NCBI RefSeq assembly: GCF_029894425.1
Contig: NZ_JARXYJ010000001.1
Location: forward strand, 9,816,501-9,880,500
Direction: 5' to 3'
Origin: Streptomyces sp. SAI-127
GTDB lineage: Bacteria; Actinomycetota; Actinomycetes; Streptomycetales; Streptomycetaceae
Length of the DNA stretch: 64,000 bases
Below the pieces are notes generated by a model. It worked only from the letters and a program-made list of their open reading frames with translations. It made no database searches and had not been told where the DNA came from. The position numbers and the translations under genes are program-made. Below are positions 14,417-34,361 of this stretch, in pieces. Position 1 is the first letter of the stretch; the number at the start of each line of letters is the position of its first letter.

Positions 14417-15586
14417 TCACCCCTCTCGGCGCAGGCCGAGAACCAGGTCGCGGGGCAGGCCGTGGGTGTCGTGGAGGTACTCGTAGTCCTCCTTGCTCAG
14501 CGGCCCCCGGTACCGCGGCCCGGACAGCAGACGCAGGCCGCGCTCCAGCAGCCTGTCGAACCGGCGTTCCTCCTCCAGCAGCACGTCACGGACCAGCCCT
14601 GTCCCGCAGCTCGTACGGAAGTGGTCCAGCGTGTGCTGGAGGAGCTCCACCGGCAGGTCGGAGAGGGTGCGGGACGGGTCCTCGCGCCGCAGGGTGGTGA
14701 GCAGGCGGCGGACCACGCGCCGCAGGACGTAACCGCGGCCGGTGTTGGACGGCCGTACCCCGTCGCCGATCACGACGACACCGGAGCGCAGATGGTCGCT
14801 GACCAGACGCAGCGACGGCTCGTCGAGTTCCCACAGGGGAGGCAGCAGCCGCATCCATGGCTCGAACAGGTCGGTGTCGTAGACCGAGTCATGGCCCTGC
14901 AGGATGGTGACCAGGCGCTCCAGCCCCATGCCGGTGTCGACGCTCGGACGATCGAGGGGCTGGAGAGAGCCGTCCTCGAGGCGGCGGTACCGCATGACGA
15001 CGTGGTTCCAGATCTCCACCCACCGCGGGTCCGTGGTGGGGGTGCCCTGAGGCGGGGTGACGCCGGTCCACACGAAGATCTCCGAGTCGGGGCCGCACGG
15101 GCCGACGGGCCCGTTGGACCACCAGTTGTCCTCCCGGGTGAGTTCCACGGGAACTCCCGACTCCTGCCAGGTGCGCAGCGATTCGAGATCGGGGCCCACC
15201 TGCTCGTCACCGCCGAAGACCGTGACGTGGAGCCTCTCCCGGGGGATGCCGAAACCGTCACGGAGCAGCTCGTAGCCCCAGCGCAGGCTCTGGGAGTGGC
15301 CGTAGTCGCCCAGCGACCACGAGCCGAGCATCTCGAACACCGTCAGATGGGTGGAGTCGCCGATCTCGTCGAGATCGGTGGTGCGCAGACAGCGCTGCAC
15401 ATTGACGAGGCGGCCACCCCGGGGGTGGGGGCGGCCCTCCAGATAGGGGGTGAGCGGGTGCATGCCCGAGGTGGTGAACAGCACCGGGTCCCCGGGCGGT
15501 GGCAGCAGTGTGCTGCCCGTGATCAGGTGGTGTCCGCGCTCGCGGTAGAAGTCGGTGAAGACGCGTACGGTCCGGTCCGTGTCCAT
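14417..15586 (-). CDS. Stand-alone alanyl-tRNA synthetase-like catalytic domain
   Basis: 389 aa against about 880-890 aa for bacterial AlaRS. It keeps the class II aminoacylation core: FYRERGHHLITGSTLLPP at the N-terminus, motif 2 LVNVQRCLRTTDLDEIGD followed by TVFEMLGSWSLGDYG, EDNWWSNGPVGPCGPDSEIF, and motif 3 SVDTGMGLERLVTILQG. The helical tRNA-recognition region is also present (NTGRGYVLRRVVRRLL). It ends right after HDTHGLPRDLVLGLRREG, the equivalent of the YDTYGFPIDL motif, so the editing (HxxxH) and C-Ala domains are absent. It may charge a tRNA or a non-tRNA acceptor, act as a resistant or trans-edited enzyme, or be a relic. The GAAGGA ribosome site is 8 nt upstream of the ATG. Confidence 0.85.
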   Translation of the reverse strand: MDTDRTVRVFTDFYRERGHHLITGSTLLPPPGDPVLFTTSGMHPLTPYLEGRPHPRGGRLVNVQRCLRTTDLDEIGDSTHLTVFEMLGSWSLGDYGHSQSLRWGYELLRDGFGIPRERLHVTVFGGDEQVGPDLESLRTWQESGVPVELTREDNWWSNGPVGPCGPDSEIFVWTGVTPPQGTPTTDPRWVEIWNHVVMRYRRLEDGSLQPLDRPSVDTGMGLERLVTILQGHDSVYDTDLFEPWMRLLPPLWELDEPSLRLVSDHLRSGVVVIGDGVRPSNTGRGYVLRRVVRRLLTTLRREDPSRTLSDLPVELLQHTLDHFRTSCGTGLVRDVLLEEERRFDRLLERGLRLLSGPRYRGPLSKEDYEYLHDTHGLPRDLVLGLRREG

Positions 15587-17338: not shown

Positions 17339-17434
17339 CGTCCTGTCTGCGGCTGGTGACAAAGCGCCCACGGGGCCCTGCGTTCTTGTGAGCAACCGCC
17401 GAGAGGCGTGCCCGCGCAGCCCTACGGTCCCAGC

Positions 17435-19147
17435 ATGAACACGAGTCGCAGCAGAGGAAGAACCCCTGAAACGCTACGTGTCGCGGCGCTGGCGGTGCTG
17501 CTGACCACCGGGGCGTTCACCCCGTCGGCGTCCGCGGACAGCGCGAGAACCGAGACACCCGTCGGGACGAGCGGGGGTGTGACCGAGACCGTCGTACGCG
17601 TGAAGGCACCCCTTCCGGCGTCCTTCGGGGCCCGTCCGGCGGCGTGCGACTGGCTGTCGTATCTGCGCTACCGGTCCTCGTCGGGGCCCGCGTCATCGGC
17701 CGACGCCGACCGGGTCCTGGTCGCTCAACCGGGCATCCTGGAGGGCGCCGGAGCCTTCGACAGCGTCGCCCGCAACACCGTGGCGCGCGCCGCCGAGCAG
17801 GGCCGTCACATCGAGTTCTGGGCCCTGGACCGGCGCTCCAACTGCCTTGAGGACCGCACCGGAATCACCTCCGGCGACCAGCACACCGCCGTCGACTACT
17901 ACTACCGCGGCAAACAGGTCCAGGGCCGCACCTTCGCCGGGTTCGTCGGCAACGACAAGCTCGGATGGATGGCGAAGCTCGGCATCGAGCAGACCGTGCG
18001 CGACGAGTACGACCTGCTCGCCGCCGAGTTGCCCGACCAGGGCGTCCGCAAGGACAAGGTGCTGTGCGGCGGCCACTCGCTCGGCGGTGTCATCACCGGG
18101 TACTTCGCCGCCGCCGACTTCGACGGCGACCCCGCCACCACCGCCGACGCCGGACACAACCAGTGCGCCGGCTACTTCGCCCTCGACACCACCGTCTCCA
18201 CATCCCTCGCCGACCTGAGCGGCAGCATCCCGGACGACACCAACCTGCCGGACGTGGGCCTCGGTTACGGCGTCGTCCAGGCCGGACTCGACAGCGGACT
18301 GCTCCCACGCTCGCTGTCGGCGCCCGTCCTGCTCAACCCCGAGACCATGACCCTGCTCGCCATCGCGGGCGTGGGCGCCCTGCAGGATCCGGGCGGCGAG
18401 GCCGATCTGCCGAGTTATCTGCCCGCCAACACCAACATCGAGGCCACCAACCGCTTCCTGTTCTCCAAGGACACGGCCACCTTCCTCACCGGCTCACCCG
18501 CGGTGAAGGACTTCCGGCTCACCAACGAGGCGATCCTCGGTTCGCTGATGGACGACCAGTCCGTGCCGCTCGCGTTCCTTCAGAGCAGCGTGGGCTTCTT
18601 CGACGGCGGGCCCATCACCGACAAGAACTTCCCCGCGGCCAACGGGAGTTCGTCGCAGCCGGGCCTCTTCGGCACCGAGTACAAGGCCATTCCCGCACAG
18701 CCGCACGGTCCGCTCTACACCTGGCGCAACTACGACCGGGTCGGCGACCCGGACGACCCCGGGTACCGGTCGTCGGACGGAACCCCGTTCACCGCGGCGG
18801 GCAAGGAGGTCACCGACATCCGGGAGCTGGCGCGCAGCATGGCCGCTCAGCCGCTGGACTTCACCGAGCAGTACTTCCCGACCAAGCTGGTCACCGACAT
18901 CCAGCTGGCCACATCCCCGCAGGTGAAGCGGCTCGTCGTGCACCCCGACGGGCTCACCGCCAACCCGACGCTCACGGTCCTCGCGGGTGACGGACTGCTC
19001 GCCGGCCGGGTCCCCGCCGACCTGCACCCCGTGGTAGCGGACGGCTACCAGCACCTCGACGTGCTGACCGCGGCGCCGGTACAGAACAATGGCCGGCCGG
19101 AGCCGGTGTCCACCGCGCTCACGGAGTTCGCGCGTACACCTCGATAG
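17435..19147 (+). CDS. Secreted alpha/beta-hydrolase (lipase-like)
   Basis: 570 aa from the ATG at 17435 (MNTSRSRGRTPETLRVAALA); a GTG at 17408 is in frame but has its GAGAGG only 1 nt away. The signal peptide is VAALAVLLTTGAF followed by PSASADS. The nucleophile elbow is CGGHSLGG near residue 220, embedded in DKVLCGGHSLGGVITGYFAAADF. Paired Cys in the mature protein suggest disulfides, as expected of an exported enzyme. Asp and His partners cannot be assigned by eye. No close named family is recognised; lipase, esterase or polyester hydrolase are possibilities. A strong hairpin follows the stop codon. Confidence 0.8.
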   Translation: MNTSRSRGRTPETLRVAALAVLLTTGAFTPSASADSARTETPVGTSGGVTETVVRVKAPLPASFGARPAACDWLSYLRYRSSSGPASSADADRVLVAQPGILEGAGAFDSVARNTVARAAEQGRHIEFWALDRRSNCLEDRTGITSGDQHTAVDYYYRGKQVQGRTFAGFVGNDKLGWMAKLGIEQTVRDEYDLLAAELPDQGVRKDKVLCGGHSLGGVITGYFAAADFDGDPATTADAGHNQCAGYFALDTTVSTSLADLSGSIPDDTNLPDVGLGYGVVQAGLDSGLLPRSLSAPVLLNPETMTLLAIAGVGALQDPGGEADLPSYLPANTNIEATNRFLFSKDTATFLTGSPAVKDFRLTNEAILGSLMDDQSVPLAFLQSSVGFFDGGPITDKNFPAANGSSSQPGLFGTEYKAIPAQPHGPLYTWRNYDRVGDPDDPGYRSSDGTPFTAAGKEVTDIRELARSMAAQPLDFTEQYFPTKLVTDIQLATSPQVKRLVVHPDGLTANPTLTVLAGDGLLAGRVPADLHPVVADGYQHLDVLTAAPVQNNGRPEPVSTALTEFARTPR

Positions 19148-19285: not shown

Positions 19286-19323
19286 GGAAGGGCCCGGGAG
19301 GGAAACTCCTCCCGGGCCCTTCC
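19286..19323 (-). terminator. Hairpin terminator downstream of the cutinase gene
   Basis: A perfect 16-bp stem (GGAAGGGCCCGGGAGG with CCTCCCGGGCCCTTCC) and a GAAACT loop lie 12 nt past the cutinase stop codon. As a perfect palindrome it can also stop transcription arriving from the lipase side. Confidence 0.9.
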
Positions 19324-19335
19324 GTCCGCGCTCGC

Positions 19336-19977
19336 TCAGACCTTGCCCGCGGCGAAGGTCGCGGCCGCGTCGGCGTTCGCCGTGTAGCCGAGGTGCGCGA
19401 GTGTGTCGTTGCCGCCCGCTTCGCAGACCGGGTCACCCTTGGCGCAGAAGTCGATGGTGCGGCTCTGGTACGTGCCGGTGACGCTCTTGCCGATCGCCCG
19501 GATCGGGTTGCCGAACAGCAGCACCGCGGCCACCCGTGACTCCAGCGCGGCGGGAATGGTGGCCACGATGGGACTGCCGACCACGGCACCGGCGCTGCTG
19601 ATGCCGATGGAGTTGTCGACGACATTCGCGCCCTGCGAATAGCCGACCAGAATGAAACGCTGATTCGGACAGGCGGCCGCCTGGCTGTTCACGTGGTTCA
19701 CCAGATCCCTGTTGCCCTGCGCGGCCGAGGTGAGGGAAAGGTCCGCGGGGTAGTTCACCTTGTAGCTGCTCACATTCCGGCCCGTGAGTTTCCTCTGGAG
19801 CGCGGAGTACACCGGGTCACCGACGATCAGGCCGAGGTTGCCCGGCTCGAACGTGCCGCGAGCGGCGACGACGTCGATGTCCGAGCAGGCCGCGGCGGAT
19901 GCCGGTGGCGCCGAGACGGTGGCCACACCGGCTCCGCCGACCAGCGAGAGCGCGGCGAGGTACAAGCGAATACGCAT
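19336..19977 (-). CDS. Secreted cutinase-family serine esterase
   Basis: 213 aa from the ATG at 19977, with AAAGGA 5 nt upstream. A Sec signal peptide (LYLAALSLVGGAGVATVSAP, ASA cut site) precedes ACSDIDVVAARGTFEPG, the N-terminal cutinase motif. The nucleophile is Ser in VGYSQGANVV near residue 117; the catalytic Asp is in KGDPVCEAGG and His in LAHLGYT, the family order, with Cys residues positioned for the usual disulfides. It would cleave cutin, polyesters or lipids outside the cell. It follows the PucR gene by 80 nt on the same strand, at the distal end of the PKS operon; cutinase-fold Rv3802c (Culp6) sits in the mycobacterial mycolate locus. Confidence 0.92.
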   Translation of the reverse strand: MRIRLYLAALSLVGGAGVATVSAPPASAAACSDIDVVAARGTFEPGNLGLIVGDPVYSALQRKLTGRNVSSYKVNYPADLSLTSAAQGNRDLVNHVNSQAAACPNQRFILVGYSQGANVVDNSIGISSAGAVVGSPIVATIPAALESRVAAVLLFGNPIRAIGKSVTGTYQSRTIDFCAKGDPVCEAGGNDTLAHLGYTANADAAATFAAGKV

Positions 19978-20057
19978 GGGGATCCTTTGAGGGTGGGGCG
20001 TGTGATACGCCTGTGGAAAGGACGTCCCGAAACTTATTCGCTTGACCATGAGAGGTG

Positions 20058-21290
20058 TTATGGACGGGAATTCAGAAATTCCTCGCTCTTTTGTGCCGTG
20101 GTGAGTGCCAGAATGAGATCCAGACGGGCGCCTGGATCGTGCAGGGCGTCACCGAAGACTTTCTCCAGCTGACGCAGCCGATAACGCACCGTCTGCGGAT
20201 GGACATGGAGACGGGCGGCGACGTCGGGCACATTGCTGCCGCTGAGCAGCCACGCCAGCAGCGTCTCGGCGAGCCGCTCGCGCTGCCCCTCCGACACCGC
20301 CTCGAGCGGTGCGAGGGCCCGCCCCCGCAGTTGGTCGAGCATCGGCTCGTCGCTGTGCAGCAGCAGGGTCGACAGGTGGTCCGCGCAGCGCACCACCCCC
20401 TGCCGGGGGAGGATCCCGCGCCCCATCAACCCCAGCGCCCGGACGGCCCAGCGCAACGACTGGGCCGCGTCGGCGAGCGGCACCGTCGGCCCGATCGCGG
20501 CCGGCCGCCCCCGCAGCGCGAGGCTGAACGCCCGGCCCCCGAAGCGCCCGGAGCCGTCCGGGTCGGGGATCAGCATCCGCGGCGGCCGCGACTCCATGTC
20601 CACCAGAGCCCCCGCGGCGGCCAGCGGCCACTCCTCCTCCCGCTGGTCCGGCGTGGCCGCGAGCGCGACGACCGCGACCTGCCTGGGCACCGACCACCGG
20701 GCACCGTGCGCCAGGTCCTGCACCGCCGCGGGTGCGACCGGACCCTCGCCGAGCAGCAGGTCCAGCAGGCGTCTGCGACGCCGCTCGAGCTCGTCGGTGT
20801 TGTGCGCGCGCGCCTCGGAGTACCCGGCAGCGGCCGCCTCCGCGACCTCGTGCACGGTGCGGAAGGCGAGCTCGCCCAGCGCCGTGACCACCGCGGAGTC
20901 GAGGCCGAGTTGCTCGGCCGTCCGGCCCATCAGGCGCCAGGCGTGCAGCCCGCCGACCCGCAGCGCGGACTGCAAGGCGTCCAGGCTGCGCCCCTCCAGG
21001 GCCTCACCGCGCCCGAGTTCGTAGTACGTCGCCGCGATCGCGTCCCCGCGGCCGCGCGGGTCGGCGATGTGGTCGACGAACAGGGTCAGCGCCTGCACCA
21101 CACCGGCTCTGAGGTTCTCGCGGTACGTTCCGTCGGCCGGGCGCGCGTACTCGGGCACCTGCCGGCGGACCTCCTCCTCGACCTCGTCGGCGACGTCCTC
21201 CAGCTGGGCGCGCAGCAGTTCGGCCAGGTCGGGCGGGACCGCGGCGGCGCCGCGGCCCTCCGGGACGCCGTGCGGGGCGGGGGTGGCCAA
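20058..21290 (-). CDS. PucR-family transcriptional regulator
   Basis: 410 aa from a TTG at 21290 (LATPAPHGVPEGRG), chosen because an AAAGGAGGG sequence, a near-perfect Shine-Dalgarno, lies 7 nt upstream; an in-frame ATG at 21413, overlapping the esterase stop by 1 nt, would add 41 low-complexity residues. The N-terminal half resembles an RsbRD-like helical domain (LLRAQLEDVADEVEEEVRRQVP, RTVHEVAEAAAAGYSEARA), the middle is a CdaR-like region, and the C-terminal PucR HTH is LAETLLAWLLSGSNVPDVAARLHVHPQTVRYRLRQLEKVFG. It is the last gene before the cutinase and probably regulates the operon it closes. Confidence 0.88.
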   Translation of the reverse strand: MATPAPHGVPEGRGAAAVPPDLAELLRAQLEDVADEVEEEVRRQVPEYARPADGTYRENLRAGVVQALTLFVDHIADPRGRGDAIAATYYELGRGEALEGRSLDALQSALRVGGLHAWRLMGRTAEQLGLDSAVVTALGELAFRTVHEVAEAAAAGYSEARAHNTDELERRRRRLLDLLLGEGPVAPAAVQDLAHGARWSVPRQVAVVALAATPDQREEEWPLAAAGALVDMESRPPRMLIPDPDGSGRFGGRAFSLALRGRPAAIGPTVPLADAAQSLRWAVRALGLMGRGILPRQGVVRCADHLSTLLLHSDEPMLDQLRGRALAPLEAVSEGQRERLAETLLAWLLSGSNVPDVAARLHVHPQTVRYRLRQLEKVFGDALHDPGARLDLILALTTAQKSEEFLNSRP

Positions 21291-21412
21291 GGGGGGCCCT
21301 CCTTTCACCCGGAAGCGGCTCACCCGCGGGCCGTTGCCCGTGGGGCGAGGGGTAAGTCCTGTGTTGGACGGACGACCCCTGCGTTGCGTTCCGTGCCCCG
21401 ACGGTACCGACA

Positions 21413-22336
21413 TCACTGCGGCACCCCCAGACCTCGGGCGAGCAACGGCCACGACGCGGTGAACTCCTGCTTCCAGTAAGCCCAGCTGTGCCCTCCTCCT
21501 GCGTAGAAGTGTGTGGTGACCGGGATGCGCTGCAGCGCGAGCGTGTCGGTGAAGGCATGGGCGGAGGGCCACAGGGCGCTCTCCAGGGCCTCGGGCAGCC
21601 AGTCACCCGTGCCTCCCGCCAGCCCGCTGCCGCTGGAGACGTACAGGGCGGTGCCGCGCAGTCCCGCGGCCCGGTTCCGCGGGTTGAAGTCGCGCCAGGT
21701 GAGCAGGTTCAGGAACGGATTGCCCCACAGCGACGTGGGCACCAGGTTCTCGCGGGCCACGATGGCGTCCATCAGGGTGGGGACACCGGGCGCCATGGTG
21801 TCGAGGATCCCGCTGTAGGAGGCCGCCGCGGTGAACATGCCCGGGTGCCGTGCCGCGTGCGCCATCGCGCCGTAGCCGCCGGTGGACACCCCCGCGACGA
21901 CCCGTACACCGGAGGCCCGGTAGTCGCGGGCGAGCAGCGCCGGAACCTCCTTCAGCTGGAAGGTCTCGTAGTCGGGCCCGCCGCGCCAGGCGGTGGGGAT
22001 CCCGGTGGGCCCCGCGTCGGGCATCGCCACGATCAGGTCCCGGCCCTCGGTGAAGGCCTCGATGTCCGTCTCCCGCGTCCAGGACGTGTAGTCGTCGTGG
22101 GCCCCGTGCAGCAGGTACAGCACGGGGTAGGTGCGGGTGGGCTGCGAGCCGAAGCCCGACGGCAGGATCAGCCGCACCGGCGCACTGCGGCCGAGCGCGG
22201 CGGAGGACACGGACACGTCGACGGTGCGTGACCCCACCGCGGCGGCGGTCCGGGCGCCGAACAGGACGGCCAGACCGGCACCGGCCGCGGCCTTGGTGAC
22301 GGTACGTCGGGACACTCCGGTGGTGCGACGGTGCAT
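21413..22336 (-). CDS. Tat-exported antigen-85/esterase-D-like hydrolase
   Basis: 307 aa. The signal peptide has a twin-arginine start (SRRTVTKAAAGAGLAVLFGA). The mature domain is the putative esterase family (PF00756) that includes mycobacterial antigen 85 mycolyltransferases and esterase D: PVLYLLHGAHDDYTSW, nucleophile VAGVSTGGYGAMAHAARHP near residue 150, and HFYAGGGHSWAYWKQEF with the catalytic His near residue 287. The acid residue is not certain. It starts 22 nt after the PKS stop and so is co-transcribed with it. In mycobacteria Fbp proteins transfer mycoloyl groups; by context this protein may act on the PKS product, but the family is broad and simple esterase activity is equally compatible. 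Confidence 0.85.
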   Translation of the reverse strand: MHRRTTGVSRRTVTKAAAGAGLAVLFGARTAAAVGSRTVDVSVSSAALGRSAPVRLILPSGFGSQPTRTYPVLYLLHGAHDDYTSWTRETDIEAFTEGRDLIVAMPDAGPTGIPTAWRGGPDYETFQLKEVPALLARDYRASGVRVVAGVSTGGYGAMAHAARHPGMFTAAASYSGILDTMAPGVPTLMDAIVARENLVPTSLWGNPFLNLLTWRDFNPRNRAAGLRGTALYVSSGSGLAGGTGDWLPEALESALWPSAHAFTDTLALQRIPVTTHFYAGGGHSWAYWKQEFTASWPLLARGLGVPQ

Positions 22337-22358
22337 GGCGGCTCTCCTCGGATCACGT

Positions 22359-25300
22359 TCAGCGGGTCCCTTCGGCGAGCTCGCGCCCCAGACGGGCGGC
22401 GATCTCGTCGACGTGCGGCGGGTCGAGCAGCGACAGGTGGTGTCCCGCGACCGGTACGACGGTCAGGCGCGGGCACACCTCGTCCCAGCCCAGCGTCTGG
22501 TCGTCGCGTTCGTAGGCGGGGTCGCGCACGGTGTGCGGAGCGGGCTCCGTGGCCCGGTACAGGACCACCCGCCCGTCGTGAAGGCCCGGCCGGTGGGCCT
22601 CGCCGATCCTCAGGTCCAGGTAGGAGGAGCGCTGGTGCTCCAGGGCGGCGGGCGGCACATCGGCGGACGCGCGCAGGATCCCCAGCACGGTGTCGATGCG
22701 TTCTCCGTCGTCGTCCATCGCGACGAGGTCGTCGTACGGCAGCTCGAGCCGGACCCCGTAGGCGTCGCTGACGTGCCGGGCGAACCCCTCGAAGTGGGCG
22801 CGGAGCCGTTCGGCCGGTGTCCGGTCCGGCTGGGGGAGGGGGCGTACGGAGTCGATGAGGACCACGAGCTCCACGTCCCGCCCCGCCGCGGTCAGTTGCC
22901 GCGCGGTCTCCTGGGCGACGAAGCCGCCGAAGGACCAGCCGCCCAGCAGACAGGGCCCGTCGGGGTGGACGGCCGTGACGGCTTCGGCGTAGCGGCGCGC
23001 CTTCTCGGTCACCGTGGGGGCGTCTTCGAGGCGTTCGAGACCGTACACCGACAGCTTGTCTCCCAGCCGTTCGGCCAGTGCCCGGTAGACGTCGGTCGTT
23101 CCGCCGGCGGCGTGCACGAGGAAGAGCGGGGGACGGCCGGCGGTGACGTGCAGCGGGCGTACCGGCCCCGGCCGGACACGGTCGGCCAGCTCTTGCACGG
23201 TGGTGGCGCCGAGCAGGTCGCGCAGCGGCAGCTCGGTGCCGAACTCGCGCTCGACGGCGGTGCGGACACGGACCGCCATCAGCGAGTCGAGCCCGAGGCC
23301 GGCCAGGGCGGTGGCGGGAGTGACCCGGCCCGCGGGGTGGCCGGTGACCGTGGCGATGTGGTGGCACAGGCGGGCGGCGACGGTGGTGTCCTCGGGCACC
23401 TCGGCCCCGGTTTTCGCGGACGCCGCTGCCGGAAGGTCGGCAGGCACCTCGGGCCGCGTCTTCGTAGGTGCCGACCCCCGCCCGTCCGTCCACCAGTGCC
23501 GCACGTGCTTCCAGCGCGGCGCGGGCAGGTCGACGACCCGCCCCGGCGGCAGCGGCAGCCGTCCGCCCGCGCAGTACAAGGTCCCCACCTGCGTGAGGAA
23601 GTCGGCGCATCCGTCGGCCTCCCGCCGGAGCGTGCCGATCGTGAGGGCACCGGGCACGTTGTCCGTGATGGCCCGGCCCAGGACCGGGTGGGGCGAGATC
23701 TCGACGAAGGCGGTGTGGCCGTCGGCGGCGGCCGCGGCGACGGCCCGGTCCAGCCGCACGGGCCGCCGCAGGTTCGCGGCCCAGTGAGCGGCGTCGAAGA
23801 CACAGTCGCCGCGCGGATCGTCCAGGACGGTGGAGTAGACCGGCACGAGGGGCGCTCTGCCTCCGACGTCGGCCAGGGACTCGGTCAACTCCGCGAGCAG
23901 CGGCTCGACCTGGGGCGAGTGCCCGGCGCCGACGACCCGCATGGAACGAGCCGCCCGCCCTTCCCGCTCCAGCCACCGCACCAGCCGTGCCACCGCCGGT
24001 TCCTCACCGGTGACGACCTTCTGCCCGGGCGAGGAGTGAACGGCGACGTGCACACCGGGGAAGTCCCGGGCCAGCGCGTCGAGTTCGCCGTCGTCGAGGT
24101 CGACGACCGCCATGGCACCGCCCTGCAATCTGCTGAGCAGCCTTGCCCGTACGGCGACGATCCGGGCGCCCTCCGACACGTCCAGCGCACCCGCGCACAC
24201 CGCGGCGGCCACCTCGCCCAGGGAGTGGCCGATGACGGCGGCGGGCTCGACGCCGTAGGAACGCCACAACTCGGCCAGCGCCACCTGGAGTCCGAACAGA
24301 ACGGGCTGGGCCACCTCCAGCCGGTCGAGTTCGCTCCCGGACGCGAGACGGTCGTACAGGGACAGCCCGCACTCCGCGTCGAGCTTCTCCACGGCGGCGG
24401 CGAAGGCGGGCTCCTCGGTGAGCAACAGGCGTCCCATTCCTGCCCATTGGCTGCCGTACCCGGAGAAGACCCACACCGGGCCCGGCCCTACGAGATCACG
24501 CTCACAGGTCACGACCTGCCTGTGCGGGCACCCCTGCGCCAACGCGCCCAGCCCGTCCGTGAGTTCGTCATGGTCCCGGGCGACCACGGCCGCCCGCACC
24601 CCTCCGCGGCCGGTCCGTCCGGCCAGCGTGCGCGCCACGTCGGCGGGATGCGCGGCCGCCGTCCGGAGCCAGTCGGCGAGCCGGGCCGCGGTGTCCCGCA
24701 GCCGCTCCTCGTCCACGTCGGACAGGAGATGGAGCCGGGCCCCGGGCTCCTCGCCCGGTCGCGCGGGCAGCACGCCGGGTCGCCATTCCTCCAGCACCGC
24801 GTGGGCGTTGGTGCCGCCGAACCCGAACCCGGAGACCCCGGCCGTGGCGGTGCCGCCGTAGCGCGGCCACGGCTCGTCCTCGGACACCACCCGCAGCCGT
24901 ACGTCGTCCAGGGCGCTGCCCTCGGAGCAGTGCAGGGAGGGCGGGATGACGTCGTGGTGCAGGGCGAGCACGGTCTTCACCAGCCCGGCGATGCCCGCGG
25001 CGGACTCCAGGTGCCCCAGGTTCGACTTCACCGAGCCGAGGAGCAGCGGCTGGTCGGGGTCGCGGCCCGCACCGAGGACGGCGCCGAGCGCGCCCGCCTC
25101 GATCGGATCGCCGAGCGGGGTGCCGGTGCCGTGCGCCTCGACGTAGTCGACGTGGGCGGGGGTGAGCCCGGCCCGGGCGTACGCGGTGGTCAACAGCGCC
25201 TGCTGGGCGGCCGGGTTGGGGGCGAGGAGGCCGTTGGAGCGGCCGTCGGAGTTGACGGCCGTGGCGCGGATGACGGCGAGCACACGGTCGCCGTCCCGCT

Positions 25301-26324
25301 CGGCGTCGGACAGCCGCTTCAGGAGCACGGCCGCACAGCCCTCCCCGCGGCCGATGCCGTCGGCGTCCGGTGAGAACGGCTTGCACCGGCCGTCCGGCGC
25401 GAGGGCGCCCGCCCGCCGGAACGCCACGGTGACGGTGGGGGAGAGCAGCAGGTTGACGCCCGCGGCGATCGCCGTGTCGCTCTCGCCCGTCCGCAGGCTC
25501 ACGCAGGCGTGGTGCACCGCGACGAGCGAGGAGGAGCAGGCGGTGTCCACGGCCATGCTCGGCCCACGGGTGTCCAGCACATACGCCAGCCGGCCCGCGG
25601 CCACGCTCAGCGCACCGCCCGCCGGCGCCCAGGGATCCACGGCCGCCGGGTCGGCGCCGGTCAGCGCACCGTACTCCGGGGCGGAGACCCCGACGAAGAC
25701 ACCGGTAGCGGTGCCCGCGAGGGACGCGGCCGGGACGGCGGCATGGGCCAGGGCCTCGTGGACGACCTCCAGGAGGATCCGCTGCTGCGGGTCCATCACT
25801 CCGGCCTCACGCGGGGTGATCCGGAAGAAGTCCGCGTCGAACCCGGCGATGTCGTCGAGGTAGCCGCCGTACGGGAGCGCGTCCTCGGGCGGGAAGGGGG
25901 TGAAGTCGCGCCAACGGTCCTCCGGGACCCGTCTGATCGCGTCGATGCCATCGGTCAGTAGCCGCCAGTAGTCGGCCGGGCCGTGTACACCGCCGGGGAG
26001 GCGGCAGCCGAGCCCGATGACGGCGATCGGCTCCGAGGTGGGCGGAGCCACCGCGGCGGGCGTCGGCGGCGGGGGCTGCGACGGCGTACGGCACAAGTGC
26101 GCCACCAGAGCCTCCCCGGTGGGCGCCTCCCACAGCAACGTCGCCGGCAGCTCGCGTCCCGTCAGCCGGGAGAGTTCCCCGGCCAGCACGACCGCTTCCC
26201 GCGAGGACATGCCGAGATCCGCCAGCGGCCGGTCCATCGCGACCTCCGCGACGGCCGTACCGGTCCACGCGGCGACCCGCTCGGCGATCAGACGGCGTAT
26301 CGCGCCCGCGTCCACGGCCCTCAC
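22359..26324 (-). CDS. Pks13-architecture polyketide synthase (ACP-KS-AT-ACP-TE)
   Basis: 1321 aa with a GTG start overlapping the ligase stop by 4 nt. Domains: ACP1 about 1-80, with the FAAL-partner motif DLGMSSREAVVLAGEL (phosphopantetheine Ser41); KS about 100-525 with DTACSSS, EAHGTGTPLGDP and GHLESAAG; AT about 610-900 with GHSLGE; ACP2 about 985-1060 with GLGLDSLMAVRVR; TE about 1075-1315 with GGWSFGG and GHHLSLLDPP. No KR, DH or ER. This order equals mycobacterial Pks13, which condenses a meromycoloyl chain with a carboxyacyl-CoA. The AT selectivity site reads GAGHS, neither HAFH (malonyl) nor YASH (methylmalonyl), so an unusual extender is likely. One condensation would give a 2-alkyl-3-keto acyl product, released by the TE. 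Confidence 0.93.
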   Translation of the reverse strand: MRAVDAGAIRRLIAERVAAWTGTAVAEVAMDRPLADLGMSSREAVVLAGELSRLTGRELPATLLWEAPTGEALVAHLCRTPSQPPPPTPAAVAPPTSEPIAVIGLGCRLPGGVHGPADYWRLLTDGIDAIRRVPEDRWRDFTPFPPEDALPYGGYLDDIAGFDADFFRITPREAGVMDPQQRILLEVVHEALAHAAVPAASLAGTATGVFVGVSAPEYGALTGADPAAVDPWAPAGGALSVAAGRLAYVLDTRGPSMAVDTACSSSLVAVHHACVSLRTGESDTAIAAGVNLLLSPTVTVAFRRAGALAPDGRCKPFSPDADGIGRGEGCAAVLLKRLSDAERDGDRVLAVIRATAVNSDGRSNGLLAPNPAAQQALLTTAYARAGLTPAHVDYVEAHGTGTPLGDPIEAGALGAVLGAGRDPDQPLLLGSVKSNLGHLESAAGIAGLVKTVLALHHDVIPPSLHCSEGSALDDVRLRVVSEDEPWPRYGGTATAGVSGFGFGGTNAHAVLEEWRPGVLPARPGEEPGARLHLLSDVDEERLRDTAARLADWLRTAAAHPADVARTLAGRTGRGGVRAAVVARDHDELTDGLGALAQGCPHRQVVTCERDLVGPGPVWVFSGYGSQWAGMGRLLLTEEPAFAAAVEKLDAECGLSLYDRLASGSELDRLEVAQPVLFGLQVALAELWRSYGVEPAAVIGHSLGEVAAAVCAGALDVSEGARIVAVRARLLSRLQGGAMAVVDLDDGELDALARDFPGVHVAVHSSPGQKVVTGEEPAVARLVRWLEREGRAARSMRVVGAGHSPQVEPLLAELTESLADVGGRAPLVPVYSTVLDDPRGDCVFDAAHWAANLRRPVRLDRAVAAAAADGHTAFVEISPHPVLGRAITDNVPGALTIGTLRREADGCADFLTQVGTLYCAGGRLPLPPGRVVDLPAPRWKHVRHWWTDGRGSAPTKTRPEVPADLPAAASAKTGAEVPEDTTVAARLCHHIATVTGHPAGRVTPATALAGLGLDSLMAVRVRTAVEREFGTELPLRDLLGATTVQELADRVRPGPVRPLHVTAGRPPLFLVHAAGGTTDVYRALAERLGDKLSVYGLERLEDAPTVTEKARRYAEAVTAVHPDGPCLLGGWSFGGFVAQETARQLTAAGRDVELVVLIDSVRPLPQPDRTPAERLRAHFEGFARHVSDAYGVRLELPYDDLVAMDDDGERIDTVLGILRASADVPPAALEHQRSSYLDLRIGEAHRPGLHDGRVVLYRATEPAPHTVRDPAYERDDQTLGWDEVCPRLTVVPVAGHHLSLLDPPHVDEIAARLGRELAEGTR

Positions 26325-28021
26325 TCGGCGCCGTCCGTCGCGTAGGCACCCGCCAGATACCGCTCACGTGTCAGCGCCCGCGACACCTTGCCGCTCGACG
26401 TCCGCGGCACCGTGCCCGGCGGGACGAGCAGGACGTCGGCGAGGCGCACCCCGTGCCGTCCGGACACAGCCGCACGCACGGCCCGTACCAGAGCCGGTAC
26501 GTCGATCCCGGCGAGGTGCGTGGTCCGCGTGTGCTCGGCGACTACGACTACCCGCTCACCGGAGCCGCCCGCGACCCCGAACGCGGCGAGCCGGTCGCGC
26601 CGGATGGCCGGATGCGTGTCCTGGACGGTGGCCTCCAGGTCCTGCGGATAGTGATTGCGTCCGTCGACGACGATCAGGTCCTTCAGCCGACCGGTGACGA
26701 TCAACTGCCCCTCCAGGACCGTTCCCAGGTCACCGGTGCGCAGCCGGCCGTCGGTTCCGAAGACGCGCCGGGTCTGCTCTTGCTGGTTCCAGTAGCCGCG
26801 GCCCACGTTGGGGCCCCGCACCTGGATCTCACCGACCTCGCCCTCGGACAGACGGTCGCCGGAGACGGGATCGACGATAAGGACCTGCTGTCCCGCCGGA
26901 GTGCCGCAGCCCGCCAGCAGCACGGCCCTCGGATCGTCCGGCCGTGCGGGCAGCGCCTTGCCCTCGGCGAGCGCGTCCCGGTCGAGGGCGAACCGGCGCA
27001 ACGGTTCCCCGGGCCGGGCGGCGCTGACGAAGACGGTCGCCTCGGCGAGCCCGTACGAGGGACAGTGGGTCTCCGCGACGAGCCCCTGACCGGCGAAGGC
27101 CGCCTGGAACCTGTCGGCCGTGCCGGGGCGGACCGGCTCACTGCCGTTGATCAGCGCGGCGACCCCGTCCAGCCGCAGCTCCGCCTTCTGCGCGTCGGTC
27201 ACCGCGGAGGCGCAGTAGTCGTAGGCGAAGTTGGGCGCCGCGCTCAGGGCGCGCGGATGCGCGGCCAACAGCCGCAGCCAGCGCGCGGGTTCGTGCAGGA
27301 AGGCGACCGGATCCATGAGTACCGACAGCAGCCCCCGCACCACCGGGGCGGCGATGCTCAGGACGAGCCCCATGTCGTGGTACAGCGGCAGCCAGCCCAC
27401 GCACGTCGCCGGATGGGCATCCGCGCCGTAGGCGCTCAGCGCCTGCCGGGCGTTGGCGACGACATTGGCGTGACTGATCTCCACGCCCGCCGGGGTACGG
27501 GTCGAACCGGAGGTGTACTGGAGGTAGGCGACCTCCGCGTCGGCCGGCTCCAGGTCTCGCGCGGCGGCGTCCGGGACCTGGTCCACGGCGACGACCCGGT
27601 CGCACAACTCCTGTACCTCACCCAGGTGCCGGCTCGTCGTCACGACGACCGAAGGACGCGCGTCGGCCAGGACCGCTGTCAGCCGGTCCCCCTGGCCCGG
27701 CAGACCGGGCGGATACAGCGGTACGGCGATGAGGCCGGCGGCGAGCGTCGCCAGGAACCCGGTGACGTACTCCAGCCCCTGGGGGCACAGCAGCGCGACC
27801 CGCGCCCCGGGCTCGGCCTCCTCGGCGATCCGGGCGGCCACCGCCCGTACGCGCACGTCGAGCCGGCGCCAGGTCAGCGTGCGATGGACGCCACGCGAAT
27901 CCGGGGCGGGATGGTCGACGAAGGTGAACGCCCGGCGTTCGGGGGCGGTTCGGGCCCAGTGGTGTACGTACTCCGGCAGACTCCGGAACGCGGGGGCGAA
28001 CGGGGGACGGCGGTTGTCCAT
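26321..28021 (-). CDS. FadD32-like fatty-acyl-AMP ligase
   Basis: 566 aa from the ATG at 28021 (MDNRRPPFAPAFRSLPEYV), with GAGGAG about 9 nt upstream. Adenylation motifs: YLQYTSGSTRTPAGVEISH (P-loop), the FAAL-typical GWLPLYHDMGLVLSIAAPV, SYGLAEATVFVSA (A5-like), GEIQVRGPNVGRGYWNQQE, TGDLGTVLEGQLIVTGRLKDLIVVDGRNHYP (A7/A8) and SSGKVSRALTRERYL with the A10 lysine. FAALs make acyl-AMP and pass the acyl chain directly to a carrier protein, not CoA. The partner is the N-terminal ACP of the PKS, whose start overlaps this stop by 4 nt. It follows the carboxylase gene by 25 nt. Confidence 0.93.
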   Translation of the reverse strand: MDNRRPPFAPAFRSLPEYVHHWARTAPERRAFTFVDHPAPDSRGVHRTLTWRRLDVRVRAVAARIAEEAEPGARVALLCPQGLEYVTGFLATLAAGLIAVPLYPPGLPGQGDRLTAVLADARPSVVVTTSRHLGEVQELCDRVVAVDQVPDAAARDLEPADAEVAYLQYTSGSTRTPAGVEISHANVVANARQALSAYGADAHPATCVGWLPLYHDMGLVLSIAAPVVRGLLSVLMDPVAFLHEPARWLRLLAAHPRALSAAPNFAYDYCASAVTDAQKAELRLDGVAALINGSEPVRPGTADRFQAAFAGQGLVAETHCPSYGLAEATVFVSAARPGEPLRRFALDRDALAEGKALPARPDDPRAVLLAGCGTPAGQQVLIVDPVSGDRLSEGEVGEIQVRGPNVGRGYWNQQEQTRRVFGTDGRLRTGDLGTVLEGQLIVTGRLKDLIVVDGRNHYPQDLEATVQDTHPAIRRDRLAAFGVAGGSGERVVVVAEHTRTTHLAGIDVPALVRAVRAAVSGRHGVRLADVLLVPPGTVPRTSSGKVSRALTRERYLAGAYATDGAE

Positions 28022-28046
28022 CGGGCAGGTCTCCTCGCGGGGCAGG

Positions 28047-29600
28047 TCAGAGCGGGATGTTGCCGTGCCGGCGCTCCGGCATCGGGGAGCGCTTGCCGCG
28101 CAGCGCGCGCAGGGCACGGCAGATGTGGTCACGGGTGTCGCGCGGGGCGATCACGGCGTCGACGTAGCCGCGCTCGGCGGCGAGATAGGGCGTCCCGTGC
28201 GTGCTCTCGTACGCGTCCACGAGCTGGGCCCGCAGCGCCTCGGGATCCTCGGCGGCGGCGAGTTCACGCCGGTGCAGGACGCCCACCGCGCCCTCGGCGC
28301 CCATCACCGCGATCCGTGCGGTGGGCCAGGCGAGGTTGATGTCGGCGCCCAGGTGCTTGGAGCCCATCACCGCGTACCCGCCGCCGTACGCCTTGCGCAC
28401 CACCACCGTCACCTTCGGCACGGTCGCCTCGGCGTAGGCGTACAGCAGTTTGGCGCCGCGCCGGATGATCCCGGCCTGCTCCTGCCGGACCCCGGAGAGG
28501 TAGCCCGGCACATCGGCGAAGGTCAGCAGCGGAATGCCGAACGCGTCACAGAACCGTACGAAACGCGCCGCCTTCTCGGAGGCGTCGATGTCCAGCACGC
28601 CCGCCGCGTGCGACGGCTGGTTGGCGACGACGCCGACGGGAGCCCCGTCGACGAGGGCCAGCGCACAGATGATGTTCGGCGCGAACAGCTCCTGGACCTC
28701 CAGGAGTTCACCGTCGTCGACGACCGCCCGCAGGATGTCCCGCATGTCGTACGCCTGCCCGAGCCGGTCCGGCACGATCTCGTCGAGCGGCACGTCGGCG
28801 GGCGGTGGCAAGGGAGCGTACTGCGGCGGCCGCTCCAGGTTGTTGGCGGGCAGGTACGACAGCAGTTCCCGTACGGTGTCCAGGGCCTCCGCCTCGTCGG
28901 CGGCGAGGAAGTGGGCGTTGCCGTTGAGGGAGTTGCTGGTGCGGGCGCCGCCCAGCTCCTCGGCGCTGGTGCGCTCCCCGGTGACCGCCTCGATGACGTC
29001 GGGACCGGTGACGAACATGTGCGAGGCGCCGTCCACCATCACGGTGAAGTCGGTGATGGCGGGGGAGTAGGCGGCCCCGCCGGCACACGGGCCCAGGACG
29101 ACGGAGATCTGCGGGATCACCCCGGACGCCTGGACGTTGCGGCGCACCAGCTCGGCGTAGAGGGCGAGCGAGACGACGCCCTCCTGGATGCGGGCGCCGC
29201 CACCGTCGTTGAGCCCGATGACCGGGCATCCCGTCCGGAGGGCGAGATCCATGAGGGCCACGGTCTTCTCGCCGAAGGCCTCGCCCATGCTGCCGCCGAA
29301 GACCGTGGAGTCCTGGGCGAACACGCAGACGGGACGGCCGTCGATCGTGCCGCACCCGGTGATCACCCCGTCCCCGTAGGGACGACGGGCACCGTCCCCG
29401 GTGGGCCGGGACCGTACGAACAGACCGGTCTCGGTGAACGAGCCGGGGTCCAGCAGCAGGTCGATCCGCTCCCGGGCACCGAACTTGCCGCGCCTTCTCG
29501 GCCCGTTCCCCGCCACGGCCTGCGCCCGGCGGGCCTCGAGCGCGAGGACGCGGTCGGCGGTGCGGTCCGGCAGACGTGTCGTCGTCACCTCTAGTGTCAC
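28047..29600 (-). CDS. Acyl-CoA carboxylase beta (carboxyltransferase) subunit
   Basis: 517 aa from the GTG at 29600, which has GGAGG 5 nt upstream; a GTG at 29606 abuts that site. Both crotonase-like halves are present: KFGARERIDLLLDPGSF, FAQDSTVFGGSMGE and GLNDGGGARIQEGVVSL, GPCAGGAAYSPAITDF, then DVPGYLSGVRQEQAGIIRRG, RKAYGGGYAVMGSKHLGAD and IAVMGAEGAVGVLHRREL. It resembles PccB/AccD5/AccD4. The acyl-pocket position that is Asp422 in S. coelicolor PccB aligns with Ala in GGGYAVMG, which could enlarge the pocket (inference). It needs a biotin-carrier alpha subunit encoded elsewhere. As first gene of the operon it would supply the carboxyacyl-CoA extender. Confidence 0.93.
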   Translation of the reverse strand: MTLEVTTTRLPDRTADRVLALEARRAQAVAGNGPRRRGKFGARERIDLLLDPGSFTETGLFVRSRPTGDGARRPYGDGVITGCGTIDGRPVCVFAQDSTVFGGSMGEAFGEKTVALMDLALRTGCPVIGLNDGGGARIQEGVVSLALYAELVRRNVQASGVIPQISVVLGPCAGGAAYSPAITDFTVMVDGASHMFVTGPDVIEAVTGERTSAEELGGARTSNSLNGNAHFLAADEAEALDTVRELLSYLPANNLERPPQYAPLPPPADVPLDEIVPDRLGQAYDMRDILRAVVDDGELLEVQELFAPNIICALALVDGAPVGVVANQPSHAAGVLDIDASEKAARFVRFCDAFGIPLLTFADVPGYLSGVRQEQAGIIRRGAKLLYAYAEATVPKVTVVVRKAYGGGYAVMGSKHLGADINLAWPTARIAVMGAEGAVGVLHRRELAAAEDPEALRAQLVDAYESTHGTPYLAAERGYVDAVIAPRDTRDHICRALRALRGKRSPMPERRHGNIPL

Positions 29601-30096
29601 AGCCACCTCCGAAGTGGCCTTCGAATATGGCAGCGCCTCCGCGGCGGGCCGAGCCCAACGTCGTTCTGTTTGCGCGAGGTGAGTCCCGCGGGGCCGGCCT
29701 TAGTCCGTGAGTGACAAGGGCCTGTGCGCGATGTGGAGCGCCCCTGTGCACTGCATTTGAGACAACCTGGCCGGAGGGAAGGTGCAGACCTATTCCGGAG
29801 GTCGGCCTTTTCGCAGGCTGTGGGACGGCGAGTGCGAGTACCGAAGCACGTGAATGAGTCAGTTCTCCGATTCGGTTCGACCGGCCGGTTGATAGTTCAA
29901 CGGGGGCGCTGCAACAATCCCGGTCCTGGCCTCGTCGCCACCCCCGACTCCCCGGCCGACCGCCCTACCGGGCTTGTCGTCAAGCGCGAATTCGAATGAC
30001 GTGAATTCCAGATTCACGAACCCCCCACAAGTCCGCACGAGCTTGACTCCGGCGTGCCTTTGATGCCACGACCGGCGCGGAGTAAAGAAGGTGCAT
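29601..30096. other. Non-coding divergent promoter region
   Basis: About 495 bases between the carboxylase gene (minus) and the DUF485 gene (plus). Short frames exist on both strands, but none has a ribosome site, family resemblance or codon bias I trust. The stretch is less GC-rich than its neighbours. It contains an inverted repeat, GTGAAT-TCCAG-ATTCAC at 30001-30017, 80 nt before the DUF485 start, a plausible operator. Promoters for the PKS operon and for the symporter operon should both lie here. Confidence 0.6.
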
Positions 30097-32966: not shown

Positions 32967-34361
32967 TCAGCGCCCGCGCACCAGCCCCGCGAGGTAGCGC
33001 CACAGCGACGAACGCGGCCGTACGGCGTCGTCGGCCGGAGCCGATCCGACCGGCGCGGGAAGGGCAGGGGGAGGGGGCACCGGCAGGGCCGGCGCGTCCG
33101 AGAGGGTGTAACGCACCGGGAGTGACCGCAGACCACGCATGAACGGCGAGGACCGCCAGGGCAGTTGGTCGACGGGCAGGGACAACTCCAGCCCGGACAG
33201 CCGCTCGAAGAGCCTGCTCACCCCGATCGCCGCCGCGCCACCGGCCAGTTCCCGGGCCGGACACTGCCGTGGGCCCGCGCCCCAGGACAGATGTGCCCGC
33301 GTGCTGATGGTCGACTCGGGGCAGACCTTGCCCGCGAAGGCCGGGTCCGCGTGCGCGGCACCGACCGACACCCACACCGGATCGCCCGCCGCGATGGTGT
33401 ACTCGCCGAGCCGCATGTCGGTCAGCGGGAACCGCGGCACGAAGTTGATCAGCGGGGGCTTCTGCATCACCACCCGGTTCATGGTCTCCCTGATCAGCCC
33501 GGCCGACAGACTGGCGCTCGCGGGGAGGCTCCCGGTGATGACCTCGACGACCGTGTTGGAGATCAGGATGCCGACATGGTCCGAGGTCATCCCGAGCAGC
33601 ATCATCAGCTCGCGCGACAACTCCTCGACGCTCAGCCCGGGATGGGAGGCGAGCAGATAGGAGGGGAAGTCGTCGCCGGGTTCCTTCATCTTCGACGCGC
33701 CCAGCTCCGACAGGGTCGCCAGCAGCCGCTCCAGCGCGGGTCCCGCGTCCGGCCCGGCGTCCAGCACCCGCCACATGTCCATCAGCGCGTCGTCGTGCTG
33801 CGAGCCGGGGAAGCCGAGCAGGTGACTCGCCACCATCAACGGCAACGGCCGCGCGAACTGTGCCGACAGATCGGCCCACCCCGTGCGCCCGCCCTGCGAG
33901 AACAGCGTGATCAGCTCGTCGGCGTCACGGGTGATCTTCGCCTTGAGCCGCTTGGCCACCGGATGCCGGGGATCCTGGAAGGGCCGGAGCGCGGTGTCCC
34001 AGGCCACCCGAAGGCCACGGTAGCCCTCACCGCCCTGGATCAGCACGTGGTTGACGTCCAGCGACGGCGCGAGCGGCCAGTCCGCGGGCAGCCGCCCTTC
34101 CCGCCGTGCCCGCCAGTTCTCCAGCCCCTTCGGCCAGTCGTGGTCGTCACGGAGAACCTGGAAGGCCTCCTCGTAGCCCAGCACGAGCCAGACGGGCACC
34201 CCCAGCAGGTCGACCGGCGCGACCGGGCCGTGCGCCCGGCGCAGACGCTCGTACACGATCGCCGGATCCCGTTCGTAGTCGCGGGTCATGAGCGGTTCGA
34301 GACTCATCGACTCCAGCGACCCGTGACCGGCTGCCGATCCGCTGTTCAGTTGGACCCCCAT
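32967..34361 (-). CDS. Atypical cytochrome P450 lacking ExxR
   Basis: 464 aa with GGAAGGAAG just before the ATG. The heme-thiolate loop is intact (HLSWGAGPRQCPARELAGG, Cys ligand near residue 366). The I-helix, normally AGxET/D, reads LLGMTSDHVG, so the acid-alcohol pair for oxygen activation is not conserved. The K-helix ExxR reads ETMN (then R one residue later), so the invariant Arg is missing; the CYP157 family of Streptomyces is a known ExxR-less precedent. The long N-terminal region (DWPKGLENWRARREGRLP) and a proline-rich tail of about 45 residues (PPPPALPAPVG) also differ from typical class I P450s. No ferredoxin or reductase is adjacent. Substrate unknown. Confidence 0.9.
   Translation of the reverse strand: MGVQLNSGSAAGHGSLESMSLEPLMTRDYERDPAIVYERLRRAHGPVAPVDLLGVPVWLVLGYEEAFQVLRDDHDWPKGLENWRARREGRLPADWPLAPSLDVNHVLIQGGEGYRGLRVAWDTALRPFQDPRHPVAKRLKAKITRDADELITLFSQGGRTGWADLSAQFARPLPLMVASHLLGFPGSQHDDALMDMWRVLDAGPDAGPALERLLATLSELGASKMKEPGDDFPSYLLASHPGLSVEELSRELMMLLGMTSDHVGILISNTVVEVITGSLPASASLSAGLIRETMNRVVMQKPPLINFVPRFPLTDMRLGEYTIAAGDPVWVSVGAAHADPAFAGKVCPESTISTRAHLSWGAGPRQCPARELAGGAAAIGVSRLFERLSGLELSLPVDQLPWRSSPFMRGLRSLPVRYTLSDAPALPVPPPPALPAPVGSAPADDAVRPRSSLWRYLAGLVRGR

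Follow-up and report, generated by a model that had tools for sequence, protein, structure and literature searches.

A conserved six-gene operon of Streptomyces, apparent sister of the mycolate condensation locus, includes an orthologue of the suberinase Sub1

This report concerns a row of six genes in Streptomyces sp. SAI-127, located in a window (the whole stretch of DNA analysed, 64,000 nucleotides) that corresponds to contig positions 9816501-9880500, about 0.1 Mb from the end of this contig of 9971768 bases. To judge from sequence comparisons, this operon and the mycolate condensation locus are sisters, and the enzymes encoded here probably carry out a Claisen condensation that yields a 2-alkyl-3-oxo acyl lipid; the substrates, the product, the acceptor and the role proposed below are those that we infer. 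Streptomyces are not known to make mycolates. A related gene set, with a thioesterase (TE) of the Pks13 type and a carboxyltransferase of the AccD4 type, is present in Streptomyces and has relatives in the Pseudonocardiaceae (Actinokineospora, Saccharopolyspora); mycolate-type lipid chemistry may have an earlier origin and a broader distribution than assumed so far, and how it arose becomes testable in bacteria that are harmless to work with in the laboratory. The six genes all lie on the minus strand, within positions 19336-29606 of the window:

28047..29606, minus strand: AccD4-like acyl-CoA carboxyltransferase beta subunit, 519 amino acids (aa); PF01039 at 612 bits, placed with AccD4 in the tree
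26321..28021, minus strand: fatty-acyl-AMP ligase (FAAL), 566 aa; PF00501, nearest solved relatives of the FadD32 type
22359..26324, minus strand: Pks13-related polyketide synthase (PKS), 1321 aa, with acyl carrier protein (ACP), ketosynthase (KS), acyltransferase (AT) and TE domains in the order ACP-KS-AT-ACP-TE; Pfam domains, trees, catalytic residues
21413..22336, minus strand: esterase of PF00756 with a twin-arginine translocation (Tat) type signal and a mycolyltransferase fold, 307 aa; PDB sequence and structure comparisons
20058..21413, minus strand: PucR-type regulator; PF13556
19336..19977, minus strand: secreted cutinase, Sub1 orthologue; PF01083 at 144 bits, exact sub1 primer sites in the S. 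scabiei orthologue

A gap of 25 nt separates the stop of the carboxyltransferase (28047) from the ATG of the ligase (28021), the ligase stop and the PKS start overlap by 4 nt (26321-26324), 22 nt lie between the PKS stop (22359) and the esterase start (22336), base 21413 is common to the esterase stop and the likely PucR start, and 80 nt separate the PucR stop (20058) from the likely ATG of the cutinase (19977). These distances, recomputed from the coordinates, agree with the gene set, minus strand and tight spacing described in an earlier, sequence-only reading of this DNA; the left end given there, 19286, lies 50 nt past the cutinase stop and was not retained.

The conservation of this arrangement was assessed by a synteny survey, a step already envisaged in that reading, on the best 80 of 287 candidate loci, which were chosen by PKS match and thus represent PKS-containing loci. 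Among these 80, the PKS is at least 70% identical in 70, of which 69 carry a Streptomyces title and the remaining one is titled Actinobacteria bacterium; identity reaches 95-96% with the relatives in S. canus. Synteny was counted in loci with room for the genes concerned. In each of the 58 orthologous loci that extend far enough in both directions, the six genes keep the same order and the same strand, and such a conserved order argues that the grouping is more than chance. Gene by gene, the AccD and the ligase were each retained in 68/68 loci, the esterase in 62/63, PucR in 62/62 and the cutinase in 60/60. At the level of the genus, a ligase orthologue (at least 77% identity) is found in 17 of 150 Streptomyces species, about one in nine, and a cutinase orthologue (at least 80%) in 16, one further genome carrying a cutinase of 44% identity. 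Both occur together in 15 of the 150, an overlap whose chance probability, uncorrected for strain kinship, is 1.3e-17. The three genomes in which only one of the two was seen are draft assemblies in 630 to 1020 contigs.

The kinship of the synthase with Pks13, proposed by the earlier reading, is supported by three phylogenies. The seven top PDB sequences for the TE domain are all Pks13 (135-140 bits, the next match scoring 69 bits), and the TE domains of Pks13 and of the window family form a single clade (support 100/99), although long branches meet at its split from the other TEs. This tree also drew on 30 fetched PF00975 loci (L294-L323), of which 9 gave rows of at least 190 aa and 21 matched the profile too poorly; two of these 9 rows duplicate loci of the family or of Pks13 (L322, L317). 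The KS domains of the window family also group with Pks13 (97/95), leaving outside the PKS of locus L205, labelled PpsA-like here because it shows a FAAL followed by ACP-KS-AT PKSs. This KS tree took 74 of 103 KS domains, with the Pks13 rows reduced from 42 to 14 and one 38-bit match excluded. A combined KS-AT tree gives the same grouping (99/95). Neither the KS nor the TE tree thus places the synthase among ordinary modular PKSs unrelated to Pks13, even if an approximately unbiased (AU) test leaves a PpsA-like PKS possibly as near (p 0.101).

The domain order without reductive domains announced by the sequence-only reading was recovered by the Pfam scan, which identified KS, AT, two PP-binding stretches and TE, and found no ketoreductase (KR), dehydratase (DH) or enoyl reductase domain. 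The synthase therefore shares with Pks13 a domain order devoid of active reductive domains. Its parts are as follows:

26070..26324, minus strand: N-terminal ACP, Ser41 in LGMSSREA, which aligns with LGLSSRDA of Pks13; Ser in all examined rows
24780..26039, minus strand: KS domain; Pfam, KS trees
23550..24488, minus strand: AT domain; Pfam, motif alignment, KS-AT tree
23919..23930, minus strand: GAGH motif of the AT, residues 799-802; GAGHS in 6/6 window-type rows
23160..23384, minus strand: C-terminal ACP, Ser1014 in LDSL; Pfam, residue alignment
22362..23144, minus strand: TE domain, Pks13 type; top PDB sequences and TE clade

All catalytic residues are intact: S41 and S1014 in the ACPs, C263/H398/H438 in the KS, S701/H802 in the AT and S1131/D1158/H1296 in the TE. 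The equivalent residues are present in 42/42 Pks13 rows for the N-terminal ACP, the KS and the AT, in 32/32 for the C-terminal ACP, and in 41/42 for the TE serine, with one gap; these 42 rows include 8 loci counted twice (L217-L224).

The nature of the extender unit can be approached from two proteins. The AT of the window carries GHSLG together with GAGH. At the latter position, the 42 Pks13 rows show GASHT (28), GAGHT (13) or GSSHT (1), the Streptomyces relatives of the type A and KR type described below show GAGHS, AAGHS or TAGHS (12/12), and five ATs of Actinokineospora and Saccharopolyspora show GAGHS, GAGHA, AAGHS, VAGHS and AAAHS. The other mycolata PKS ATs sampled carry HAFH, YASH, YGSH, VASH, VAPH, VAFH or VPYH. 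In PMC7522111, GHSQG with GAGH is linked to butyl- to hexylmalonyl extenders, and GAGH is reported in module 18 of primycin.

The second protein, the carboxyltransferase, clusters with AccD4 and with the AccD of the Actinokineospora operon, apart from PccB/AccD5 (98/87; 49 rows, 45 distinct, midpoint root, stambomycin MccB absent), in agreement with the AccD4 relation suggested earlier. Two of its codons are informative:

28371..28373, minus strand: codon of Ala412, at the position of Asp422 of PccB; aligned to 3ibb (PccB D422A) and in the 49-row alignment
29145..29147, minus strand: codon of Val154, at the position of the PccB Phe taken to face Gly161 of MccB; PccB structure and 49-row alignments, the MccB sequence itself not being aligned

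The best PDB match of the carboxyltransferase is 3ibb, the D422A mutant of PccB. Phe is kept, with Asp or Cys at the other site, in 15/15 rows of the PccB/AccD5 type, and Ala occupies the Asp422 position in 12/12 rows from AccD4 loci, where the second site is Gly, Ala or Ser; the window protein, with A412 and V154, resembles the latter rows in having Ala at the first site and no Phe at the second. According to PMC5187497, PccB with Ala in place of Asp can bind longer chains, butyryl-CoA for instance, and Phe is universal in carboxylases for four carbons or fewer. Taken together, the GAGH motif of the AT and the replacement of Asp and Phe by Ala and Val in the carboxyltransferase point to a 2-alkylmalonyl extender. 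The same traits, Ala at the PccB Asp, loss of Phe and GAGH, are found in the MccB-type carboxylase and AT of the stambomycin and primycin systems, which differ in that a macrolide module is involved there, and a single condensation with its own TE here. MccB was considered as the nearest carboxylase and rejected, being no nearer to this AccD (661 bits) than PccB (695-697 bits). An identity as plain PccB, suggested by the top single PDB match, was also discarded, the residues and the tree position disagreeing with it.

For the ligase, the nearest solved relatives are of the FadD32 type, the family forms a clade (95/92), and a position as sister of FadD32 is weakly supported (86/22). The same genome holds a second FAAL, 44% identical, at L170 (G000:C1:5006000-5025000), beside a protein with a PF00756 stretch.

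The esterase appears to be a Tat-exported protein of mycolyltransferase fold, as the earlier reading had proposed. It begins with the twin-arginine stretch SRRTVTK, its best PDB sequence match is PS1, and mycolyltransferases or their Ag85-family relative MPT51 fill the first 19 Foldseek rows and the first 22 VIA rows. Residues S151, E252 and H283, invariant in a 10-row alignment, are presumably the Ag85 triad; the titles of PDB structures list S124, E228 and H260 mutants of Ag85C. Fold and Ser-Glu-His set are thus those of Ag85 and PS1. The esterase tree was drawn without outgroup, the G000 paralogues being too distant.

The most direct link with an assayed enzyme is provided by the last gene. 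In the S. scabiei locus L040, the two ends of the cutinase gene are perfect matches to the published sub1 cloning primers (PMC7104285), and the window cutinase is 82% identical to this cutinase. In S. scabiei, the Sub1 gene follows AccD, ligase, PKS, esterase and PucR, which is the same position in the same gene row, and the window cutinase can be assigned on these grounds as the orthologue of the suberinase Sub1. Sub1 is reported to be induced specifically by suberin and to be active on cutin, suberin and polyethylene terephthalate (PET) (PMC7104285, PMC5158115). The main text of PMC7104285 makes no mention of an operon, of neighbours or of a gene cluster for Sub1, and a literature search found no link between a Sub1-type enzyme and a lipid pathway; an assayed cork- and PET-degrading enzyme is here tied to lipid pathway genes. 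The Rv3802c type put forward by the sequence-only reading finds no support here and was rejected: no tblastn match was obtained at 1e-8 in Corynebacterium loci, phmmer gave traces of 16-17 bits, and the Sub1 primers are exact.

These elements can be combined into a single scheme. The ligase would turn a fatty acid into acyl-AMP and load it on the N-terminal ACP, while the AccD4-like carboxyltransferase, paired with a biotin subunit whose gene lies outside the operon, would form 2-alkylmalonyl-CoA by carboxylating an acyl-CoA of medium or long chain. The AT would transfer the 2-alkylmalonyl unit to the C-terminal ACP, the KS would join both acyl chains by decarboxylative Claisen condensation, and the Pks13-type TE would release the resulting 2-alkyl-3-oxo acyl chain by transfer to an acceptor or by hydrolysis. 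The keto group might then stay, be reduced by the product of a gene elsewhere, or, in the free acid, give a ketone by loss of CO2. The exported esterase may transfer the acyl chain extracellularly, and the cutinase of the Sub1 type may act on the same lipid or free plant polyester fatty acids that feed the pathway; an exported esterase and a cutinase in the same operon suggest extracellular use of the product. The 2-alkyl-3-keto lipid of the earlier reading is thus favored by the domain order and catalytic residues, the Pks13 and AccD4 kinship, the esterase fold and the signs of the extender, its FadD32 component being the weak one. The mycolata-like gene order of the Actinokineospora loci L086 and L088 and the clusters of FAAL, MMPL and esterase in family f17, both described below, also speak for it.

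Several observations weigh against this scheme or against the kinship on which it is built. In a wider KS tree, a 45-row group that includes the PpsA-like L205 has a weak support of 74/95; the AU test on KS-AT (p 0.101) bears on a PpsA-like PKS nearer than Pks13; and the branch order within the family differs among the KS, KS-AT and TE trees. On the curated NCBIfam models, the PKS reaches 1164 bits for Pks13 (NF040607, cut-off 2100) and the FAAL 485.7 bits for FadD32 (NF038339, cut-off 975), so that the comparison with these families suggested earlier gives scores for both, below the cut-offs. That of NF040607 is passed by 0/199 Streptomyces genomes (E <= 1e-250 per stretch) versus 55/61 genomes of family f4, which we take to be the mycolata family. 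The best other Streptomyces matches to this model (926-1030 bits) are relatives in the window family, and L012, a PKS outside the family, scores 885 bits; the score is therefore not specific, and it was no longer counted in favor of membership. The AT motif serves as a rough guide, AAGHS being found also in L168, a FAAL-PKS whose KS lies outside the clade, and Ala412 and Val154 indicate a direction, not a chain length. Finally, the operon has neither a ketoreductase nor an MMPL gene. In view of the score below cut-off and of the AU value for the PpsA-like PKS, the synthase is ranked, by sequence, as a sister family of Pks13 and not as a Pks13 member by the curated test.

Three other explanations have to be considered. 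In the first, compatible with the chemistry proposed above and tentative at best, the operon would serve the use of plant polyesters: the suberinase would free long fatty, omega-hydroxy and dicarboxylic acids, from which ligase, carboxylase and PKS would make a surfactant or storage lipid on cork or cuticle. The orthology with the suberin-induced Sub1 and the 15 genomes shared by cutinase and ligase speak for it, although the latter figure carries no correction for strain kinship and the fetched stretches of Actinokineospora-type and other Streptomyces relatives gave no cutinase match. In the second, which we regard as unlikely, a one-module polyketide with a small extender (methyl-, ethyl- or butylmalonyl) would be a 2-short-alkyl-3-oxo acid or ketone acting as signal, volatile or antibiotic, rather than a mycolate-type lipid. 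The published GAGH link concerns butyl- to hexylmalonyl and not long chains (PMC7522111), Val154 is a bulkier residue than those found there in AccD4 (Gly, Ala or Ser), and none of the 18 window ORFs (open reading frames) scanned with Pfam matched MMPL or a reductase; against this stand the kinship of TE, KS and AccD with the mycolate set and the adjoining esterase of mycolyltransferase fold, present in most fetched relatives too. The third, convergence of a FAAL-loaded modular PKS of the PpsA type that would have lost its reductive domains and resemble Pks13 by architecture alone, is quite improbable: the L205 KS scores 509 bits to the window KS versus 423-456 for the Pks13 KS of L096-L099, and the AU value is in its favor, but the TE and AccD clades, the KS clade without L205, and the L205 AT motif (VAPH, not GAGH or GASH) speak against it. 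PpsA-type PKSs share the loading of an N-terminal ACP by a FAAL and differ in their AT motif, with no TE match in the L205 PKSs.

Like the mycolata fadD32-pks13-accD4 locus with its adjoining mycolyltransferase genes, the operon presented here has a FAAL, an ACP-KS-AT-ACP-TE synthase, an AccD4-type carboxyltransferase and an Ag85/PS1-type esterase in one locus, with TE and AccD in the same clades. It differs by its gene order, AccD-FAAL-PKS in all 58 loci with room and not FAAL-PKS-AccD (the AccD is first rather than last; the sequence-only reading had already noticed a differing gene order), by the presence of PucR and the suberinase, by PKS and FAAL scores below the curated cut-offs, and by the distance from AT to TE, 130-204 aa in the window type (6 rows; 136 in the window) versus 371-509 in Pks13 (42 rows). 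The fadD32-pks13-accD4 locus is stated in PMC9900942 to be exclusive to mycolate-producing mycobacteria and Corynebacterineae. Titles and abstracts in a literature search, whose scope left out most subscription journals, gave no report of such a locus in Streptomyces, and prior reports are possible. The six-gene synteny, the Actinokineospora relatives with the mycobacterial order, and the Sub1 orthology with its co-occurrence with the ligase are new.

These relatives belong to a wider family. Streptomyces type A (6 loci) has a FAAL, an ACP-KS-AT-ACP-TE synthase and an esterase, no AccD within the stretch, and, in the loci scanned for them, a zinc alcohol dehydrogenase in three and a major facilitator superfamily gene in two. 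In the Streptomyces KR type (6 loci), the esterase was seen in 4. The DH-KR type of Actinokineospora and Saccharopolyspora (5 loci) has the esterase in four and PucR in four; in Actinokineospora L086 and L088, a FAAL, an ACP-KS-AT-DH-KR-ACP-TE synthase, AccD, esterase and PucR are found, with the mycolata order FAAL-PKS-AccD and with reductive domains present. The AT-to-TE distance is 128-245 aa in type A and 881-1254 in the DH-KR and KR types. Pks13 is described in PMC11649247 and PMC9900942 as having a DH* half domain (a dead DH half) and a third ACP, for which the 130-204 aa of the window type leave no room; the latter is a minimal Pks13 relative without extra domains, of use for biochemistry. 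The stretch after the AT of Pks13 matches the start of the Pseudonocardiaceae DH with an HHalign probability of 95, partly through a common AT linker, versus 5.8 with the KR type. From this DH-like stretch and the dead DH half, two separate losses are suggested: the reductive domains may have been lost independently in the Pks13 and Streptomyces lines, the AU test for a single non-reducing clade being borderline (p 0.049). Of the ancestral or independent assembly considered in the earlier reading, the homology of the parts with the mycolate machinery is retained, the loss of the reductive domains being possibly separate. A broader and speculative view is that mycolate condensation is one branch of an older actinobacterial FAAL-PKS-AccD-mycolyltransferase family with a DH+KR ancestor, of which mycobacteria would keep a relic of the DH half and Streptomyces would have lost the block separately, and that the latter would make an exported 2-long-alkyl-3-oxo acyl ester from plant polyester fatty acids freed by the suberinase.

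In actinobacterial family f17, taken here as Pseudonocardiaceae, the ligase is found at E <= 1e-120 in 25/120 genomes, and in part of the 20 stretches fetched an esterase, or else an ACP-KS PKS, lies a few kilobases away. In two of them (L258:7222-15872 and L245:7406-13386), a FAAL lies beside an MMPL gene and a mycolyltransferase-like esterase, with an ACP-KS PKS some kilobases off and, in L258, a glycosyltransferase; these clusters are possible glycolipid loci. FAAL-mmpL glycolipid loci exist in mycobacteria, and the MMPL gene beside the FAAL in these two scanned relatives recalls them. Several FAAL loci can occur in one genome: G110 combines a window-type ligase with a KR-type cluster, and G128 a type A with a KR-type locus.

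The neighborhood of the operon includes one further conserved gene:

17408..19147, plus strand: conserved secreted protein with a GHSLGG motif, convergent neighbor; kept in 57/60 loci with room

This 579-aa protein, encoded tail to tail with the cutinase, belongs by this count to the conserved neighborhood; it gave zero Pfam or NCBIfam family matches, and its AlphaFold model (mean pLDDT 36) was not used. The other neighbors identified by the Pfam scan (SSF transporter, YceI, GH53, AraC, ABC permease) appear unrelated, and a PADLOC search returned no match. On the minus strand, a 464-aa protein (32967-34361) has a weak cytochrome P450 match (24 bits), and a 389-aa protein (14417-15586) is a short stand-alone paralogue of class II alanyl-tRNA synthetases, matching that family at 286 bits over positions 5-404 of 552.

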